From positions 1-29,661 of IMG/VR virus record IMGVR_UViG_3300024256_000047: DNA of 29,661 nt, one strand, 5' to 3'. Made by a program: the position numbers and the translations under genes. Below are positions 5,801-19,020 of this stretch, one piece after another (within the stretch, counting starts at the first letter, position 1; each line of letters opens with the position of its first letter). Source of the stretch: a virus. A model generated the notes under the pieces. That model saw only the letters and a list, made by a program, of their open reading frames with translations. It made no database searches and was not told the origin of the DNA.

Positions 5801-7128
5801 TGAGTGAAGTATTAACAATGTTCGAAGCCTTTATGGCTGACGAAAAAGCATGGGATATGTATATTACAGGTTCTGCTGGCACAGGTAAAACAACAAGTCT
5901 GCATGAGCTAGTGGCATATTGCGAAGAGAACGATATTGCTACATTAACTACAGCATTTACCCATAAAGCATGTGGTATTCTGGCTAATAAGTTACCTGAT
6001 AAAGCTGCTATAAGTACATTACATAGTTTTCTTAGAAAGCGTCCAGCTATTAATGATCAAGCCACTAGAGTTAAAGATATTCAACTTAGTAAACAGCAAG
6101 GTAAACCTCAAGTATTTAACGTTCTATTCTTAGATGAGTATTCTATGGTAGGTGAAAAAGACTGGGCTGATCTTCAAGCGGTACAAGATCCTAACTATAC
6201 TGGTATACCTCTAATGAAGGTAGTTTATATCGGCGATCCTAATCAATTGCCACCAGTAGGTGATACACCTGTAGTTCATCTTAAAGATCCTTATTGGGTT
6301 AAACTGACTAAAGTCCATCGCCAAGCGGAAGATAATCCTTTAATGATTCCGCTAAATCAATTAGTTAGTTTTATTGAGGGCACTGCTGAACCTACTACAT
6401 TGATTGAGTCTGAATCATTTCTTCGTGGACAAAACCTATATGATGCCTGGTCTGAACGAGAGACAACGGATACAGTTTTACTTGCCTATACAAATAAACG
6501 TGTTCAGGAGCTCAATGAGGCGATCGCAGAACGATGTGAACCTGAAGCAGAAGATATCTTATTTAGTCCAACAACAAGAAGTACTTATGGCTACTTCAAT
6601 GGCATAACTCCTGATAAAGTACGAAATATAGTACAGCCATGGAATGGTTTATTAGAATTTAATAGTAAGTATAGAACACTAGAATTCTTAGTGTCTATGG
6701 AAGGTATTAAATTTGCTGACGTATTTAACTATGAAGAAGACGAAGCACAAACTGTAGCTTATGTCTTTGGTCATTATGACTATAAGCTTAAGTTAGAAGA
6801 GCTAGGTCATATCGCAGCAGAGACTAATAAGATTATAGATGAAAGTTTCCATTGTAGTCCAGCTGCTTGGGCTAGATCAAATGCAAGACATCCATTAGCT
6901 AGAGCAAGATCAAAAGCATGGCGAGAGTATTTAACGTTCAAAGATTCTGTTATATGTTTAGACTTCCCTTATGCTATGACTGTGCATAAAAGTCAAGGTA
7001 GTACTTATGATACAGTTATTTTAGACTCCCAAGACTTAGCTAAATGTTCAGAGCATAATTATACCTTGTACCTTAAACTAATGTATGTAGCTATCAGTAG
7101 GGCAAGTAATAAAGTAATAACTAACTAA
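5800..7128 (+). CDS. Dda-like SF1 DNA helicase
   Basis: A 442-residue protein, close in length to T4 Dda. Walker A GSAGTGKTT is near residue 24, a DEYSMVG Walker B near 111, GDPNQLPPVG (motif III) near 147, and the C-terminal TVHKSQGSTYD (motif V) and YVAISRAS (motif VI) near 392 and 429. Together these define the RecD/Dda branch of SF1. ATG 5800 was chosen over the in-frame ATG 5764 because GGAG lies 10 bases upstream and the previous TAA overlaps it. It is expected to unwind DNA 5'-3', clear bound proteins and help start replication or recombination. Confidence 0.9.
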   Translation: MSEVLTMFEAFMADEKAWDMYITGSAGTGKTTSLHELVAYCEENDIATLTTAFTHKACGILANKLPDKAAISTLHSFLRKRPAINDQATRVKDIQLSKQQGKPQVFNVLFLDEYSMVGEKDWADLQAVQDPNYTGIPLMKVVYIGDPNQLPPVGDTPVVHLKDPYWVKLTKVHRQAEDNPLMIPLNQLVSFIEGTAEPTTLIESESFLRGQNLYDAWSERETTDTVLLAYTNKRVQELNEAIAERCEPEAEDILFSPTTRSTYGYFNGITPDKVRNIVQPWNGLLEFNSKYRTLEFLVSMEGIKFADVFNYEEDEAQTVAYVFGHYDYKLKLEELGHIAAETNKIIDESFHCSPAAWARSNARHPLARARSKAWREYLTFKDSVICLDFPYAMTVHKSQGSTYDTVILDSQDLAKCSEHNYTLYLKLMYVAISRASNKVITN

Positions 7129-7177
7129 TGATTTACCGTGCTAGCCGGTCGCTAGTAATTTTAATGGAGTAGTAAGC

Positions 7178-7546
7178 ATGAGTGAAGAAAAGCAGGAACA
7201 AGAGCAACCGCAGCAAAACATCCCTTTGTTTGAGCTGAGTCCTAATGGTATACCTAAGTTTAATGCAGATTGGGAGCAGACGTTACTAGCCTACGCTAAT
7301 CATAAGCCTGAAGATGTCCCTATGCTACACTTAGCTAGGCATCTTTTAGCAACTCAGCAGCATCTGCAAGGCATGCTTAAGGATCAGGTAGTGACAGCTA
7401 TTCGTCTTTTAGCTAAAGCTTTTGAAGTAGAAGAAGCTGATATCGTAGATATGATTGTAGCCAAAAAGTACGCGACTAAAAAGGATCTTACAGCGCGCTT
7501 AGCCCCTCCTGAAGAAATAGCTAAGGAAGCAGCTAACGATAAGTAA
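7178..7546 (+). CDS. Conserved-type phage protein next to SSB, unknown function
   Basis: A 122-residue helical protein with a Gln/Glu-rich N-terminus (EEKQEQEQPQQN) and a Lys/Ala-rich C-terminus. No catalytic motif is visible. A TGGAG ribosome site lies about 11 bases upstream. It sits between the Dda-like helicase and the SSB promoter, so it may be a replication accessory. I cannot name a family. Confidence 0.7.
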   Translation: MSEEKQEQEQPQQNIPLFELSPNGIPKFNADWEQTLLAYANHKPEDVPMLHLARHLLATQQHLQGMLKDQVVTAIRLLAKAFEVEEADIVDMIVAKKYATKKDLTARLAPPEEIAKEAANDK

Positions 7547-7573
7547 TTATTAGGAATATATAAAAGATTCTAA

Positions 7574-7603
7574 TTGTACAACGGTTAATCAATTATATAT
7601 AAT
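7574..7603 (+). promoter_or_regulatory. Promoter P4 (TTGTAC-N18-TATAAT)
   Basis: TTGTAC at 7574-7579 and a perfect TATAAT at 7598-7603 are separated by 18 bp. The -10 lies in the self-complementary stretch ATTATATATAAT. The leader to the SSB start is about 80 bases, much longer than at the other promoters. Confidence 0.75.
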
Positions 7604-7613
7604 AGATGTTCAA

Positions 7614-7635
7614 GTTTCGGAGTAACCCTCCAAAC
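7614..7635 (+). other. Small hairpin in the SSB leader
   Basis: GTTTCGGAG and CTCCAAAC pair as 8 bp with one bulged C around a 5-base loop. It has no T tract, so it is not a terminator. It could stabilise the mRNA or serve as an autoregulatory site for the SSB, but only the pairing is seen. Confidence 0.35.
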
Positions 7636-7689
7636 GTTCTGTAGTATGACGATATATGCTACCATTAAAGAAAATATAAAGGAAACATT

Positions 7690-8316
7690 ATGTCAACAGC
7701 AGTAAAATTTCATTCTCCTAAAGGTGACCTTCAATGGGTAACCTATGAAGGTGAAGGCAAGGAGAATATGAGTGGTAAACTACAGTATGTAGCAAATGTA
7801 GTTGTAACATCAGAAGTCGCAGCAGATCTCATTGCTACGTTAGAAGCTTTTTGGGAAGAGAATAAACCTGCCGGGTTTAAGAAAGCACCAAAGTCTATGG
7901 GTTATTACCCTGAAGTAGAAAAGAACCCTGAGACTGATGAATGGGATATTGAAACTGGTCGTGTTAGTTTCGCATTCAAAACAGGTGTTGAATATTCTGA
8001 TGGTAAACCCAAAGTTATCAATATCCATAACGCTAAAGGTAATCAAATTAGCCTAGGCGGTCGCAAGATCGGTAATGGTTCTATTGGTATTATTGGTGGT
8101 GCAATGGGTGTCTACGAGAATAAACAAAAAGGTAAAGTCCTTGACGCTGGTGTCACACTTTATTTGAACTCTATTCAAATTACTAAATTTGAAGAGTACA
8201 AAGATGGTGATACTTTTGAGGCTCAGGAAGAAGATGGTTTTGAAGGATTTGATGATTCTACAGAACAATTCGCTGACCAATCTATGCAAGACAACTCTGC
8301 TAAACCTAAGTTGTAG
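7690..8316 (+). CDS. Single-stranded DNA-binding protein, T7 gp2.5-like
   Basis: A 208-residue protein with a beta-rich core of about 165 residues ending in LYLNSIQITKF, followed by an acidic tail (EAQEEDGFEGFDDSTE). This is the layout of T7 gp2.5-type SSBs, in which the tail binds the polymerase and helicase. Unusually, the protein does not stop in the acidic stretch but continues to a C-terminus ending SAKPKL. An AAAGGAAA ribosome site precedes the ATG. It lies just before the DNA polymerase gene, as expected for a partner. The family call rests on overall pattern, not on a catalytic motif. Confidence 0.7.
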   Translation: MSTAVKFHSPKGDLQWVTYEGEGKENMSGKLQYVANVVVTSEVAADLIATLEAFWEENKPAGFKKAPKSMGYYPEVEKNPETDEWDIETGRVSFAFKTGVEYSDGKPKVINIHNAKGNQISLGGRKIGNGSIGIIGGAMGVYENKQKGKVLDAGVTLYLNSIQITKFEEYKDGDTFEAQEEDGFEGFDDSTEQFADQSMQDNSAKPKL

Positions 8317-8378: not shown

Positions 8379-10088
8379 ATGATAAAAGTACCTTATAAAA
8401 TAGTAACACTGCAAGAAGTATTCAAACAACTCAATTCAATAGAAGAGCTATATTTCGATACTGAAACTGATGGGCTATATGGAACTATCGAATTAGCGCA
8501 ATTCTTTCAACCTTGCTGGGATGAAGTGCTATTAGTACGTAAACCTAACCCTTTTGATCTAGTAACTATTCTAGGTAATACTACTATAGTTATGCACAAC
8601 GCAAGTTATGATATTAGTACACTACAAGATCAACTAGGTAAAGTTTACTATTGTCCTTCATCTATTGAAGACACCTTTTATTTAGCTCGACTACATTATT
8701 ACACTAAAGAAAAGTTTTCACTAGATAAAGTAATGACCTATTGTCTAGGCTATGATCCTTATGAAGTACAAGACCTGAATAAGACAGTACTACAAAAGTC
8801 TAATTGGTCTGGCGAGCTATCTGAAGATCAATTACTTTATGCAGCAACAGATGTATTTTATTTACCTGCTGTGTACTCACAGGTATCAGAGCAAGAAGAA
8901 ACTTATAGCTATAAGCTTGATATACACACCTTAAAGCATTGTCTAAATTTCCAGAATAACGGAATGCCCGTAGATCAAGGTGAGTTACAAAAAGCATATA
9001 AAGAGAATCTAGCTAGGATAGCTGAGATAGATCTACCAATTAATAGTAACAGTTGGAAGCAAGTTAGACCTTACATAGATCATGATGAATCTGACGATTT
9101 AGCACTCATTAAACTAAAGCTACAAGGTAATGAGAGAGCTGGAGCTGTGCAAGAGACTAGAAAGACTATTAAGCAAAATAGTTTTTTATCTAAATTCGAT
9201 CATACTAGTGCAGATGGTAGAATTTATGGTAAGTTCTTACCTAGTACTAGGTCAGGTCGTTTAGCTTCTAAAGATCAAAACCTTCAACAAATACCACGTA
9301 AGTTAAAGAAAGTCTTTGGTTACTCTACTGAAGATGACCGAGTACTAATCTATTCAGATTATGCTCAACTAGAATTACGCTGTATCTGCGCTATTACAGC
9401 TGAGCACAGAATGGAGAAATTATTCAGAAGTAATGAAGATCTTCATGGCTATACTACTAAACTAATCTTTGGTGAAAACTTTGCCCCTGAAGAAAGACAA
9501 TTAACTAAAACAGGTAACTTTAGCTTGCTTTATGGTTCTAGTCCTAGGACTTTTGGTAGCATTCTTTTAAAGCAAGCTGAGCTATGGTGGGATGAACACA
9601 AGCTAAAGATCTTTAAAAAGAACTGGCTTAATCTCTGGCCTGCTATTGCTGCATGGCAAGAAGCTGGCATTAGTGCTTGGCGTAACGGAATACCTTGGGC
9701 AACTCCTATGGGCAGAAGATATGTAGCTAAGTTAATGACGGATCAGCTTAATATCCAGAACCAAGGATTTGGTGCAGAAGTGGCTAAACTAGCTTTACAC
9801 TATATGATGCCAAAACTACGTGAACTAAGCCCTGAAATTAAGCTTATTAACTTTATTCATGATAGTTATATCTTAGACTGCCCTAAAGATGAAGAGCTAT
9901 GGAAAGCGGCAAGTAAGATCGTTGCTGAATGCATGCAAAAAGCTTGGTTTGCGTCTACTCAAGGAGTTAAGATTAAAGATTTACCCATGCCTATTGAAGT
10001 CTTTGTAGGTTATAACTGGGGCCGTATTGAAAAAGACTACTTATATAAGTATGAACTAGAGGGAATGACACATGCGAAAGATTTTTAG
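8379..10088 (+). CDS. Family A DNA polymerase with 3'-5' exonuclease
   Basis: A 569-residue replicative polymerase, shorter than T7 gp5 (704). The exonuclease domain carries D27/E29 (FDTETDG), N74/D78 (NASYD) and Y154/D158 (YAATD), so proofreading residues are complete. Polymerase motif A is SDYAQLELR (D327). Motif B has R373, K377, F381 and Y385 (the Pol I 754/758/762/766 positions). Motif C is HDS at 494-496 instead of the usual HDE. F381 at the 762-equivalent position is the form seen in E. coli Pol I. A strong AAGGAGGG ribosome site lies 6 bases upstream. The 3' end overlaps a small frame starting at 10072. Function as replicase is secure. Confidence 0.95.
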   Translation: MIKVPYKIVTLQEVFKQLNSIEELYFDTETDGLYGTIELAQFFQPCWDEVLLVRKPNPFDLVTILGNTTIVMHNASYDISTLQDQLGKVYYCPSSIEDTFYLARLHYYTKEKFSLDKVMTYCLGYDPYEVQDLNKTVLQKSNWSGELSEDQLLYAATDVFYLPAVYSQVSEQEETYSYKLDIHTLKHCLNFQNNGMPVDQGELQKAYKENLARIAEIDLPINSNSWKQVRPYIDHDESDDLALIKLKLQGNERAGAVQETRKTIKQNSFLSKFDHTSADGRIYGKFLPSTRSGRLASKDQNLQQIPRKLKKVFGYSTEDDRVLIYSDYAQLELRCICAITAEHRMEKLFRSNEDLHGYTTKLIFGENFAPEERQLTKTGNFSLLYGSSPRTFGSILLKQAELWWDEHKLKIFKKNWLNLWPAIAAWQEAGISAWRNGIPWATPMGRRYVAKLMTDQLNIQNQGFGAEVAKLALHYMMPKLRELSPEIKLINFIHDSYILDCPKDEELWKAASKIVAECMQKAWFASTQGVKIKDLPMPIEVFVGYNWGRIEKDYLYKYELEGMTHAKDF

Positions 10089-10398: not shown

Positions 10399-10589
10399 TG
10401 CAGTTACTTGAAACACAATGTAAGGGTATATCTGTAGCTATAGTTGTTAGACGAATAAGAGGCATTAAGACACACCCAAAAGGTGGTTGTATTATTGCTA
10501 CTGGTCCTCATGAAGATGACTATTGGCACTCAGATGAAACGTTTGAAAAAATTATGACAAAATTGGAGTATATAAGTGAAGACATTTGA
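10395..10589 (+). CDS. Small protein before the TS-fold enzyme, unknown function
   Basis: A 64-residue protein starting at ATGATG with an AAAGGAG ribosome site. It has two Cys and a C-terminal acidic half containing HEDDYWHSDETFEKI. It overlaps the GTG start of the thymidylate-synthase-fold gene by 14 bases, so the two are coupled. No family recognised. Confidence 0.6.
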   Translation: MMQLLETQCKGISVAIVVRRIRGIKTHPKGGCIIATGPHEDDYWHSDETFEKIMTKLEYISEDI

Positions 10590-11388
10590 AAATCAGTATA
10601 AAGAACTAGTTGGAAGGCTCATGCGACATGGAGAGGTTAAAGAAGGTCGTAATGGCAGAACTAAATCCATGTTCGCAACAACTCTAGAAATTGGCGGACT
10701 TGATAAAGGTTACTTTCCTTTATTGACAGGTCGTCAGATGTATTATAAGGGTGTATTAGGTGAACTAGCTGCTATGCTTCGAGGACCTACTTGTGTGGAT
10801 GATTTTGAAAAATTCGGTTGTAATTATTGGGGTCAATGGGCAGATGATAGTGGTCAACTTAAACTGGACTATGGAAACGCTTGGTTAGATTGGAATGGGA
10901 CTAATCAGCTTGATATGCTTCGCGATAGCCTTAAAAATAATCCTAACGATAGAAGAATGCTGGTTACTGGCTGGAATCCAGAAAACCTCGCTGATCTTAG
11001 TTTGCCTTGTTGCCATATCTTGTATCAGTGGCATGTATCTGTTGATGGGAAGCTGAATATGATTTGGTATCAACGTTCTGCTGATACTATGGTAGGTATA
11101 CCTTCGGATGCTATCTTAGCTGCAACATGGAATATTCTTATAGCCAATGAGGTAGGCTTAACACCTGGTAAAGTAACTATGGTTTTTGGTGATACCCATA
11201 TTTATGAAGAGCATTGGGATACAGTTAAGGACTACTTAGACGTTTGTAAGAAACTTTATAGAGTGCTTCCACCTAAGTACGAACTAATTGCAGAAGCTGG
11301 GATGCCTATTGAAGAGTTCCTACCTACCATGATAGATATCCGTGAATACAAGCATGGACCTAAACTTAGTTTCGAGGTAAAAGCATAA
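10576..11388 (+). CDS. Thymidylate-synthase-fold dNMP (hydroxy)methylase, probably dCMP-specific
   Basis: A 270-residue, full-length member of the ThyA / dCMP hydroxymethylase family, which uses methylene-tetrahydrofolate to modify C5 of a pyrimidine nucleotide. Visible are R127 of the phosphate site (NDRRMLV), catalytic C146 (LPCCHILYQW), R167 and D170 (YQRSAD), and H208 and Y210 (GDTHIY). The decisive position is 178: E. coli ThyA has N177 in LGLPFN, while here the sequence is VGIPSD. T4 gp42 dCMP hydroxymethylase has Asp (D179) at this place, and changing this Asn to Asp in thymidylate synthase is known to favour dCMP. The likely product is therefore 5-hydroxymethyl- or 5-methyl-dCMP; I cannot tell which. 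Start is GTG 10576 with GGAG 7 bases upstream. A sequence search would probably label it thyA. Confidence 0.85.
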   Translation: MKTFENQYKELVGRLMRHGEVKEGRNGRTKSMFATTLEIGGLDKGYFPLLTGRQMYYKGVLGELAAMLRGPTCVDDFEKFGCNYWGQWADDSGQLKLDYGNAWLDWNGTNQLDMLRDSLKNNPNDRRMLVTGWNPENLADLSLPCCHILYQWHVSVDGKLNMIWYQRSADTMVGIPSDAILAATWNILIANEVGLTPGKVTMVFGDTHIYEEHWDTVKDYLDVCKKLYRVLPPKYELIAEAGMPIEEFLPTMIDIREYKHGPKLSFEVKA

Positions 11389-11750
11389 TGGATGAAGTAA
11401 AAAGAATATGTACGTGGAATGCTAAGCGGTATGAGCAAGAGTTTAATAAAGAACTAGCTATGAATCTTCTTAGGGAAGAACTATTAGAGTTTTATCATGC
11501 GAAAGAAGAGGTAGATGAACTTGATGCTTTATTAGATCTTGTATATGTAGCTTTCGGAGCTATGTGGAAAATGGGTTTAAGTAGTGAACAAATCATAGAG
11601 GCGCTCAAAGTAGTATGCAACAGTAATGAAAGTAAGAGTGAAGAAAAAGTTGCTTCACACGTTAAAGCTAATATAGATAAAGGGGCAGGTTTTATTCGAC
11701 CTGAACCAGTATTACAAGAAATTTTAGACAGGAGAGAAACTAATGACTGA
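11388..11750 (+). CDS. All-alpha NTP pyrophosphatase (MazG-like), candidate dCTPase
   Basis: A 120-residue protein of the MazG/HisE/dCTPase class. The first helix pair carries REELLEFYHAKEEVDELDALLD (about residues 29-50), supplying the EExxE and downstream acidic metal ligands, followed by LVYVAFGAMWKMG as in phage members. Such enzymes cut nucleoside triphosphates to monophosphate and pyrophosphate. Its ATG shares one base with the TAA of the preceding enzyme, so the two are made together. A dCTP-cleaving role, as for T4 gp56, would fit the predicted dCMP-modifying partner, but the substrate cannot be read from the sequence. Confidence 0.75.
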   Translation: MDEVKRICTWNAKRYEQEFNKELAMNLLREELLEFYHAKEEVDELDALLDLVYVAFGAMWKMGLSSEQIIEALKVVCNSNESKSEEKVASHVKANIDKGAGFIRPEPVLQEILDRRETND

Positions 11751-12165
11751 TGTAGGACTAGTAACTTGCGATACTTGTAGGTTTGATAAACAAGCAAAAA
11801 GAGACTTAGAATGTGACAGTTGTGCGCAATGTTCTAACTGGATGAGCCAACGTATTAGTTTTGAAGAGGGAGAAACACTAACATTTCATGAAGAAGGCGT
11901 AGCCGTTCCAACTATTGATAATACGCTAAAAGAGCGTGGTTCTCGTTATGGTACGCTAGAGCAAAATGGTCTTGTTGGGCAAGGCATGAAACGTTTTGCA
12001 CGATTAGGAGTTAATTGGGATATCCTAACTGATGGACAAAAAGAGTCCATTGAAATGATCTGTCACAAGATTAGTCGTATAGTTAATGGAGATCCAAACT
12101 ATAAAGATTCCTGGCATGACATTATTGGCTATGCTAAACTAATTGAAGACAAACTGGAGGATTAA
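11743..12165 (+). CDS. Zinc-ribbon plus DUF6378-like phage protein
   Basis: A 140-residue protein. The N-terminus has four to five Cys (CDTC at 9-12, then CDSCAQC at about 24-30), likely a zinc knuckle. From residue about 60 the sequence NTLKERGSRYG and then IEMICHKISRIVNGDPNY plus DSWHDIIGYAKL match the pattern I know as DUF6378, a phage domain of unknown activity often found with nucleotide-metabolism genes. It starts 8 bases before the end of the pyrophosphatase gene with an AGGAG ribosome site. A role in nucleotide metabolism is suggested only by its neighbours. Confidence 0.7.
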   Translation: MTDVGLVTCDTCRFDKQAKRDLECDSCAQCSNWMSQRISFEEGETLTFHEEGVAVPTIDNTLKERGSRYGTLEQNGLVGQGMKRFARLGVNWDILTDGQKESIEMICHKISRIVNGDPNYKDSWHDIIGYAKLIEDKLED

Positions 12166-16065: not shown

Positions 16066-16365
16066 ATGAATGAACAACAATTACAGAAGAAAATACAAGA
16101 CTATCTTAAGAAGCAAGGAGTATATTGTTTCAAGACTATCAGCACTAATAGATCGGGCATACCAGATATTATTGCATGCGTACCGCCACTAGGTACTTTC
16201 CTTGCTTTAGAAGTTAAAGTAGGTAAAAATAAACCCTCAGCTTTACAACTTCACCATGTAAATGAAATTAATAAAGCTGGGGGCAAAGCACACGTTGTAT
16301 GGTCGCTAGAAGAAGTAAAAGATCTACTTGAACAAAATGACTTTATCTCCGACATTAAATCCTAA
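16066..16365 (+). CDS. VRR-NUC family nuclease
   Basis: A 99-residue stand-alone VRR-NUC protein of the PD-(D/E)XK superfamily. The active site is GIPDIIAC (D34) and ALEVKVG (E49, K51), followed by PSALQ (Q61), all in the usual order and spacing. Small phage members act as structure-specific nucleases, e.g. on Holliday or flap junctions. An AAGGA ribosome site precedes the ATG. It is the last + strand gene and its last 42 bases overlap, tail to tail, the last gene of the - strand. Confidence 0.85.
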   Translation: MNEQQLQKKIQDYLKKQGVYCFKTISTNRSGIPDIIACVPPLGTFLALEVKVGKNKPSALQLHHVNEINKAGGKAHVVWSLEEVKDLLEQNDFISDIKS

Positions 16366-19020
16366 AAATCCTTTATTTTCTAACTTTTGCTCAAGTCCAG
16401 GAATGCCACGAATTGCCTCTGGAGTTATTTCTTCTAGTCCAGTGACTTGTTTAATAGCTTCAGAATCGGCGATTCTATGGGGATGCACTTCTTCAGTAAC
16501 GACCTTGACGCCTTCCTTACCTTTAGCCTGTGCAGCAGCTGCCTTGTGTTCTGTACCATAGTATACCCCTTTACCTAGTTCACCAGTTGTTTTAGCTTTC
16601 TTAGTACTATCTGTGGCAGCTCGATAAATCTTAACTTTAGGCGCAGCAAGATCTTTTTGCCCAAACTTAGCATAAGTAATAGCTAGCTCATTTATTTTAT
16701 CTGCCATAGCTGGATCTTCTCCAAGGCTTTGAACTAGAGAATTAATATCTTTGGCATTTAGTGGATTCTCAAGTACCTTACCTGTTTTAGTTACTAGAGC
16801 TAATGCGCGACCTTTTTGAGTGGGAGCCAATCGTTTAATCCCATTAAATATGCTACTAGCAAATTCATACTTTGCTCTCATTACAGGATCAACTGTTAAG
16901 AAACTTTGGAACTTAGGGATTGAGATATTTCCAGACGCTTTAGCTAAGTTAACGTCATTACGCCATACCTCAGACATTTCTTTAACCGCTCGCTTAAGCT
17001 GACGAGCTTCAGGTGTAGAGAATGCTATACTATCTAGTTCTTTAGCTAGCATAGGGAAATGAGTTGCTCTCGTCTGTCCTTCTAAACCCGCAGTAAACTT
17101 ATTAGTTAAATGATCTAATACAGCCCCCTCCATATTAACCCTAGCTTTTTGAGGCAGCTTAGAAATTAACTGCATAAAAGTACCATCAGGAGAAGTAATT
17201 TTATTCGACAATTGTTTAACTAGTTGCTTAGGCTCCATACCTTTAGACTGCAGAGCTTTAGCTAAAATATTCTCTTCTAATGCAAACATCTTAGCATATT
17301 CAACATTAGCTTTCTTCCACGCCGTCTTCCAAGCTGAGGCATTAGTAAGATGCTTTCCAGTAGTAGTAGAAATTTCTTTATCTATTTTACTTAGCACATG
17401 ATCAATACCAGCACGATCTATTGCAGAACTAAGCTTTTTATTAAACTTAAAATTATTAATAGTTTGGCGTAGTTCTAACAAGTTCTCAAAAGACCTCAGG
17501 TTCTCATCTAAAGTAATAGCGGTGCCTTCTGGTAGTATACGCTCTCCTGTTGCGTCTAGTGGAGTCGGACGAACTGGAGTAGCTACCTCTGTACCTTTTT
17601 TAGTTACTGTCTTTTCTGCTTTAGTTCCTAGTAGTCGAGCTTTAGCTATACGCAGTTTAAACGCCTCAAGAACAGTAGGATTAGTTATCTTACTTTCTAT
17701 CTTATCAAGTAAAGGTCTAATAGCTAAGTTTTCATAATCAAACTGATAACTAGATGGTACTTCTTCAACTGCTTTATTCTTAGTAGCAGCGTAAAAGCTT
17801 TTAACTTTACCTTGATATGCACCTAACTCATCTTTAAGTACAGTAGCTACATTAGTTGAGCTTAGCTCTTTAGAACTAGCTAACAAGTTTTCAGCACGGT
17901 CTGAAATATTTCTAACTACTCGTGCACTAGCAGTAGGATCAATAGCCATAGCAGGTGCAGCAAATGTTTCACCACCTGGCTGTGTCATACCAATAGCTTC
18001 AATTTCCTGGGCGGCTTTAGACTTAGGCAAATCGCCCGTAGTATGCTTCTCAAATAGTTCAACGATCTCATCTACTTGAGTCTGGTCCAAACCCATGATA
18101 TCTTTTAATGCTCTACGAGCACCTGAGCTATCACCACCAGAAACAAAGTCCCAAGCTTTCCTAACTCCTTTAGCACCTAGGTTAAATGCTGGACCTAGTA
18201 TAGCAGTAAACGTAGCATCATCAATACCTGCTTGTTTCATCTGGTTAAAGACTTTAGCTGTGCTTAAATCATCTACTTGTTGCAATGCTTTAGCAGCAGC
18301 ATTAATATCAGCTCCTCTACCCGCCGCTGCACCTAGGGCACCAAATACAGCAGCACCAGCAGCTTTAATTGGGAGCGGACCTGGTATAGCCGCACCCCGA
18401 CTAGCGCCAGCAATAGCTCCACCAAGTTCATACTTACCTGCTTCTACTGTATCAAAGAAGTCTACGTCGAGAGGTTCAAATGCTCCTTCGGCTGTAAACT
18501 GACCTACTTCATTAGTCTCAGGATTAAACTGCACAGGCAAGCCATATTTCTGAGCTATGGCCGCAATACCCATGTTTAGCTTGGTCTGGTCACTACTAGC
18601 TTTAGCCATAGCTTCAGGAGAAAATCCACCACGTATCATAGTTGGTATGTCCATGCTTTCTCTAGTTAAAGCATCAGCAGTAGCAGTAAATTCTGATAAA
18701 TCCATTTCTCCTTCTTCTGGTATCTGTGCGTCATCAAAGAATACACCCATAGTACGTTGTACCATATCTTGCCCACGTTGCACAGTATCTTGTATACTAA
18801 AAGGCTCTTGTGGTTCAGGTTCAGCTACTTGTACACTTTTACGACGCTCAATTTCTTGCGTCATAATACTAGAGATAAACTGGTTAGTCTCATTAGGATC
18901 TAGGTTAAACTTTTGAACTAAACCCGCAGATATATCTTGTGGGCTCATGTCTTGATCTAACGCTTGGATAACAGTATCAGGGTTAATTTGATCTATACTG
19001 TAAGGTGCATTTTCTGGCAT
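16324..19020 (-). CDS. Large ejection-type virion protein with C-terminal ADP-ribosyltransferase-like domain
   Basis: An 898-residue protein, last gene of the structural operon. Residues 1-120 are acidic and helical. A hydrophobic Gly/Ala stretch near 198-235 could insert into a membrane. The middle is helical and Lys-rich. Residues 796-898 look like an ART fold: IYRAA (R800), GKGVYYGTEHKAAAA (816-829), then VTEEVHP and a final GFLGFNVGDKVILF. This order resembles phage and toxin ADP-ribosyltransferase domains of the 'GkGvYf...A' type. The catalytic triad is not certain. Position after portal and ejection genes, and size, suggest it is injected with DNA, as T4 Alt is. A GAGGT ribosome site supports the start. 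ART call moderate; ejection role inferred. Confidence 0.65.
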   Translation of the reverse strand: MPENAPYSIDQINPDTVIQALDQDMSPQDISAGLVQKFNLDPNETNQFISSIMTQEIERRKSVQVAEPEPQEPFSIQDTVQRGQDMVQRTMGVFFDDAQIPEEGEMDLSEFTATADALTRESMDIPTMIRGGFSPEAMAKASSDQTKLNMGIAAIAQKYGLPVQFNPETNEVGQFTAEGAFEPLDVDFFDTVEAGKYELGGAIAGASRGAAIPGPLPIKAAGAAVFGALGAAAGRGADINAAAKALQQVDDLSTAKVFNQMKQAGIDDATFTAILGPAFNLGAKGVRKAWDFVSGGDSSGARRALKDIMGLDQTQVDEIVELFEKHTTGDLPKSKAAQEIEAIGMTQPGGETFAAPAMAIDPTASARVVRNISDRAENLLASSKELSSTNVATVLKDELGAYQGKVKSFYAATKNKAVEEVPSSYQFDYENLAIRPLLDKIESKITNPTVLEAFKLRIAKARLLGTKAEKTVTKKGTEVATPVRPTPLDATGERILPEGTAITLDENLRSFENLLELRQTINNFKFNKKLSSAIDRAGIDHVLSKIDKEISTTTGKHLTNASAWKTAWKKANVEYAKMFALEENILAKALQSKGMEPKQLVKQLSNKITSPDGTFMQLISKLPQKARVNMEGAVLDHLTNKFTAGLEGQTRATHFPMLAKELDSIAFSTPEARQLKRAVKEMSEVWRNDVNLAKASGNISIPKFQSFLTVDPVMRAKYEFASSIFNGIKRLAPTQKGRALALVTKTGKVLENPLNAKDINSLVQSLGEDPAMADKINELAITYAKFGQKDLAAPKVKIYRAATDSTKKAKTTGELGKGVYYGTEHKAAAAQAKGKEGVKVVTEEVHPHRIADSEAIKQVTGLEEITPEAIRGIPGLEQKLENKGFLGFNVGDKVILFK

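Follow-up and report, generated by a model that had tools for sequence, protein, structure and literature searches.

The window analysed here, i.e. the whole stretch of DNA under study, is a virus record of 29,661 bases, which is incomplete (29.7 kb, versus approximately 41 kb in relatives). Its early genes form a block on the plus strand, comprising a primase/helicase, a Dda-like helicase, a ssDNA-binding protein, a family-A polymerase, a thymidylate synthase (TS)-like gene and an NTP-pyrophosphatase, and continuing with an exonuclease, a PD-(D/E)XK nuclease, a helicase and an ATP-dependent ligase. Late genes are located on the minus strand. Four features of the early block are relevant here:

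8379..10088, plus strand: family-A DNA polymerase, preceding the TS-like gene within the early block
10576..11388, plus strand: TS-fold candidate dCMP C5-methylase (GTG start, 270 aa; Asp178 codon GAT at 11107-11109)
11388..11750, plus strand: MazG/DR2231-like all-alpha NTP-pyrophosphatase, candidate dCTPase, overlapping the stop of the TS-like gene and with an intact EExxE motif
11743..12165, plus strand: DUF6378 protein, next in the operon (PF19905, E=3.2e-5, below Pfam's cut-off)

Elsewhere in the window, an 898-aa protein (16324-19020, minus strand), which is a probable virion protein, ends with approximately 110 residues (YRAATDS...GKGVYYGTEHKAA) resembling by eye an ADP-ribosyltransferase-type domain; Pfam returned no match.

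The 270-aa product of the TS-like gene (hereafter the query) matches Pfam Thymidylat_synt over residues 6-268 (E=3.8e-59) and PHROG 160 (E=2.4e-69). Its AlphaFold2 model (pLDDT 94.7) superposes on E. coli TS with a Z score of 34.5 and an rmsd of 1.4 A over 258 residues, and can be aligned as far as residue 264, the last residue of the E. coli enzyme. MAFFT alignments with E. coli ThyA, T4 gp42 and SPO1 gp29 indicate that the query retains E63 (E58 in E. coli), W85 (W80), Y99 (Y94) and R126/R127, as well as C146, R167, D170, H208 and Y210. With a PF00303 match, the TS fold and the catalytic Cys, Arg, Tyr, Glu and His, this protein is a member of the TS/pyrimidine (hydroxy)methylase superfamily. 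An earlier sequence-only reading of this DNA had claimed that the core ThyA residues are kept while E. coli N177 is replaced by D178, and had proposed alignment with ThyA, T4 gp42 and the SPO1 enzyme as a check. These alignments bear it out, as D178 falls on E. coli N177 and T4 D179 with no gap around the site, and the two motifs it had pointed out, GRNGRTKS and WxxWAD (WGQWAD in the query), are both present. The query thus departs from canonical TSs, in which Asn at position 177 (E. coli numbering) serves dUMP, and carries the Asp that characterises dCMP-directed members of the superfamily.

Relatives were gathered from annotated phages and IMG/VR, resulting in an alignment of 85 clade members, some of which are near-copies (65 members in the non-redundant set). 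We refer to members with Asp at position 177 as D-type and to those with Asn as N-type. Asp is found in 82 of the 85 members (62 of the 65 non-redundant ones), many of which are just 38-62% identical to the query, and Asn in the other three. In the nine canonical TSs compared, namely E. coli ThyA and eight from phages, the residue is always Asn. In addition, two other contigs (L009 and L010) carry the query's gene at 99-100% identity, Asp included, so that the residue is not a read error. Asp178 results neither from chance nor from sequencing error.

The clade forms a single group (branch support 100/100) located near canonical TSs on the tree. It includes phages of approximately 40-48 kb, such as Edwardsiella KF-1, Vibrio VPMS1, Pseudoalteromonas PH1, Dickeya Amaethon and Pelagibacter Kolga, along with many IMG/VR contigs. 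A tree joining the clade with the enzyme of phage AXL1, which we used as a stand-in for the Xp12 enzyme, costs 1.84 log-likelihood units and is not rejected (AU p=0.44); the independent switch to Asp suggested by the sequence-only reading is thus only one possibility. With T4 gp42, SPO1 gp29 and M6 gp58 included, the tree was uninformative, the program having flagged very long branches. Bacterial genomes provided just two matches, located on 37-43 kb contigs of metagenome bins, which are probably viral contigs. Clade members are annotated as 'thymidylate synthase' or, once, 'pyrimidine hmase', just as the sequence-only reading had anticipated in supposing that annotators would call the enzyme thyA. 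Finally, each of 47 records contains exactly one TS-family gene above the cut-off, and these phages thus have no separate TS of the TS family.

The gene immediately downstream of the query encodes a protein matching PRA-PH (E=8.8e-8) and phrog_671 (E=2.1e-15), the model of which (pLDDT 91.8) is an all-alpha NTP-pyrophosphatase. Its closest fold match is DR2231 (Z 9.8), followed by dCTPases (Z about 7), one of which was solved with 5-methyl-dCMP. It combines the fold and the EExxE motif expected of a dCTPase. As such Z values are modest for helical bundles, the fold does not fix the substrate: DR2231, the nearest solved relative, was crystallised with dUTP analogues, and the fold also fits other MazG-like enzymes.

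The same association is common across relatives. Among the 76 D-type loci with enough downstream sequence, 66 have an NTP-pyrophosphatase gene close to the TS-like gene, the stop codon of which usually marks the start of the pyrophosphatase, as it does in the window, and a motif alignment shows EExxE to be intact in nearly all of them. A search of whole records for PRA-PH agrees with this distribution and adds two records (L021 and L022); in about ten D-type loci, no pyrophosphatase was recognisable. A dCMP deaminase is encoded nearby in 51 of the 76 loci (fused to PF18909 in PH1, KF-1 and L034), a DUF6378 protein in 21 of them, and in many relatives the TS-like gene is preceded by that of a family-A polymerase. 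No dCMP deaminase was found in the window, an incomplete record. Its DUF6378 protein has an N-terminal Cys cluster (CDTC...CDSCAQC) and lies about where several relatives have their dCMP deaminase, sometimes fused to PF18909. In the subgroup of Pelagibacter phage Kolga (L008; e.g. L068, L074, L085, L087, L089 and L093), the Asp enzyme and the pyrophosphatase are present with no family-A polymerase upstream; the enzyme-pyrophosphatase pair is thus not confined to one type of genome. A Tad2-like (Thoeris anti-defence) domain (E=3e-23) was also detected in one early protein of the set formed by KF-1, PH1, VPMS1, Amaethon, ctXG1253 or the window (alignment A2).

Five lineages (L014, at 6792-7424, L019, L041, L063 and L083) carry, adjacent or close to the TS-like gene, a dNMP-kinase-like ORF whose similarity to phage deoxynucleoside monophosphate kinases (phrog_139, E 1e-9 to 1e-10) is weak but clear. 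No mononucleotide kinase was recognised in the window, KF-1, PH1, VPMS1, Amaethon or ctXG1253; weaker phrog_139 matches (E 1e-5 to 5e-3) were discounted, as they fall inside 731-800 aa primase/helicase frames. Both the kinase-like ORFs and the window pyrophosphatase match parts of the phrog_38514 profile, which suggests that kinase and NTP-pyrophosphatase are joined in a single protein elsewhere. Dihydrofolate reductase (DHFR) is rare in the clade (D-type L034, L035 and L014, and N-type L017), and its presence in the three D-type records is expected if dihydrofolate is made. An ORF annotated as 'bifunctional dihydrofolate reductase-thymidylate synthase' (L004:329-1339, minus strand; ct1fd225, MW202744) has neither a TS nor a DHFR domain and was rejected as a mis-annotation. 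Taken at face value, the neighbouring genes would cover the needs of base replacement, namely destroying dCTP, modifying dCMP and re-phosphorylating the product, which is the pathway expected for cytosine replacement.

From the residues and gene company described above, we predict that the substrate of the enzyme is very probably dCMP. The product, 5-methyl-dCMP or 5-hydroxymethyl-dCMP, is a separate matter. The signature proposed for hydroxymethylases combines two positions: the third residue before the catalytic Cys, which is Asp (or Glu), and the second before Tyr, which is Ser (or Thr, in the wider definition of the T4 type) (Park et al. 2019, PMC6400193). The Asp is needed for hydroxymethylation, as the D145N mutant makes none, and T4 gp42 has no C-terminal tail of the TS type (PMC6400193). 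In the clade, the residue three before Cys is Leu in all 85 members (Leu143 in the query), as in TS, and the residue two before Tyr is Val, Leu or Ile in all 85 and Ser in none, so that the T4-type combination is absent throughout. The former residue is Asp in three characterised hydroxymethylases, T4 gp42 (acting on dCMP), SPO1 gp29 and M6 gp58, the last two being from uracil-modifying phages. It is Asn, not Leu, in the enzyme of AXL1, an inferred 5-methylcytosine phage. The C-terminal tail is also of the TS type in the query, its model aligning to the last E. coli residue, and the equivalents of Trp80 and His147 are retained in the clade.

Because Leu three before Cys and the TS-type tail are both kept, 5-methyl-dCMP is favoured, and we regard it as the likely product, a reading that depends on few residues. 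The rival that fares best is a dCMP hydroxymethylase in which the exocyclic methylene is attacked by water, yielding 5-hydroxymethyl-dCMP, with a water-activating residue different from that of T4. Such an enzyme would share with T4 gp42 the Asp at the base-selecting site; characterised hydroxymethylases belong to the same superfamily; and pyrophosphatase, deaminase and kinase company matches the hydroxymethylcytosine pathway of T4-type phages. Besides the residues and tail just described, which speak against it, no carbamoyltransferase (PF16861) was found in 44 records, and the 25 commonest families listed for 77 early proteins do not include a glycosyltransferase; nothing found thus points to subsequent modification of a hydroxyl group, and we consider hydroxymethylation unlikely. 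The sequence-only reading had proposed a dCMP (hydroxy)methylase: its cytosine part is supported, as Asp is found clade-wide, the neighbours fit and the same residue marks cytosine modification in PMC8670742, and between the two products it had left together, the absence of the proposed hydroxymethylase signature and the presence of the TS-type tail make methyl the likelier.

An ordinary TS that tolerates Asp and still uses dUMP would account for the overall closeness to canonical TSs, the conserved His147 and the Asn found in three clade members. It sits poorly with an Asp maintained in 82 of 85 members at such low identities and with the finding that the Asn-to-Asp change moves the preference of the E. 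coli and L. casei enzymes towards dCMP (cited in PMC8670742). Also informative are the Asn members themselves. They are placed separately on the tree (L017, L033 and L086), and all three are predicted to be without a working pyrophosphatase: none was recognised anywhere in the 46.8-kb record of L033, nor between the TS-like gene and the nuclease gene in L086, and in L017, the TS-like enzyme of which has Asn again, the catalytic EExxE of the pyrophosphatase (7545-8006) has become DTVSK. The association between Asn and pyrophosphatase loss gives a Fisher's p of 0.01 when relatedness is ignored, and is not significant once relatedness is counted, with just two to three independent pairs and hence no power. 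As independent pairs are few and L086's Asp relatives likewise have no pyrophosphatase gene, the coupling is suggestive only. Overall, an unaltered TS activity appears improbable. More improbable still is a cytosine route to thymidylate (dCTP to dCMP, 5-methyl-dCMP and then dTMP via the deaminase adjacent in many clade members), in which 5-methyl-dCMP would serve as an intermediate, either instead of or in addition to being a DNA precursor: the frequency of deaminases near D-type genes, their fusion to PF18909 in three records and the absence of a second TS from all 47 records would suit it, but no deaminase was found in the window, cytosine-modified phage contigs have this deaminase company as well (PMC8670742), and replacement accounts better for a kinase and a dCTP-removing enzyme.

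Our preferred reading, which we hold to be fairly likely, is therefore that of a dCMP C5-methylase built on a nearly unchanged TS, in a phage with much or all of its cytosine as 5-methylcytosine. Asp178 would hold cytosine and protonate its N3, Cys146 would add to C6, and methylene-tetrahydrofolate would supply the one-carbon unit at C5. As the query retains Leu143, Trp85 and the closing C-terminal tail, all of the TS type, hydride transfer would then finish the reaction, yielding 5-methyl-dCMP and dihydrofolate, instead of the water addition that leads to 5-hydroxymethyl-dCMP. The adjacent NTP-pyrophosphatase would convert dCTP to dCMP, both feeding the methylase and keeping plain dCTP out of DNA. 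Phosphorylation of 5-methyl-dCMP towards the triphosphate would fall to a kinase, which some of the related phages encode themselves, and the family-A polymerase would need to use the modified dCTP. The outcome would be 5-methylcytosine DNA resisting many restriction enzymes, as in Xanthomonas phage Xp12, and the altered cytosines would probably hide phage DNA from bacterial defences, a strategy already known from other phages. As for virion DNA itself, we predict substantial cytosine replacement with a slightly better than even chance.

If this is true, a lineage of small phages, with cultured members infecting Edwardsiella, Vibrio, Pseudoalteromonas, Dickeya and Pelagibacter, is methylated at cytosine across the whole of its DNA, and its members have wrongly been annotated as carrying thyA. 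This would matter for restriction, type IV defence and phage therapy, as well as for amplification bias in viromics. The lineage would also provide natural dCMP methylases that depart from TS chiefly in the base pocket, and its natural reversals to Asn would allow comparison. Our search for literature on restriction digests of KF-1, VPMS1, PH1, ETP-1 and Amaethon DNA provided no usable paper.

The central idea, that Asp177 marks cytosine modification, has been published: in the MetaGPA study of 2021, this residue distinguishes cytosine-modified contigs among 433 environmental TSs (PMC8670742). TS, PRA-PH and dCMP deaminase domains co-occur in these modified contigs, and ligase domains are among the strongest associations (PMC8670742). 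Our clade shares with them Asp177 and the company of PRA-PH, dCMP deaminase and ATP-dependent DNA ligase. However, position 147 is changed as well in the modified contigs (PMC8670742), some of which have a carbamoyltransferase, whereas the clade keeps His147 and none was found; the clade may thus be of a different type from that dominating the MetaGPA data.

Among known pathways, a close parallel is that of Xp12, in which 5-methylcytosine replaces cytosine. Its kin, Stenotrophomonas phage AXL1 (PMC9206674, PMC7653180), encodes a TS, an NTP-pyrophosphatase, a dCMP deaminase and a DHFR (PMC9206674). As in our clade, the TS-family gene adjoins the NTP-pyrophosphatase and dCMP deaminase genes and a methyl product is favoured, and AXL1 gp63 has the base-selecting Asp of the query. 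The two proteins are only 28% identical over 148 residues, and gp63 differs by Asn-Val-Pro-Cys, by Pro at position 147 and by another stretch between W80 and Y94. T4 gp42 also combines the TS fold with an Asp for cytosine recognition, its partners in T4 being a dCTPase and a dNMP kinase; unlike it, the query does not have the Asp145/Ser94 pair but has retained the C-terminal tail of TS, and on the tree (with very long, flagged branches) a large distance separates gp42 from the clade. Finally, engineered TSs with this Asn-to-Asp change (L. casei N229D and E. coli N177D) act as dCMP methylases (cited in PMC8670742). The query, with the same substitution on a TS scaffold, looks like a natural version of them, differing by Ser177 in place of Phe176 and Pro-Cys-Cys in place of Ala-Pro-Cys. 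With respect to these systems, the present analysis adds a delimited clade that includes cultured phages, the operon of this clade, residue-based arguments for methylation over hydroxymethylation and natural reversals to Asn.
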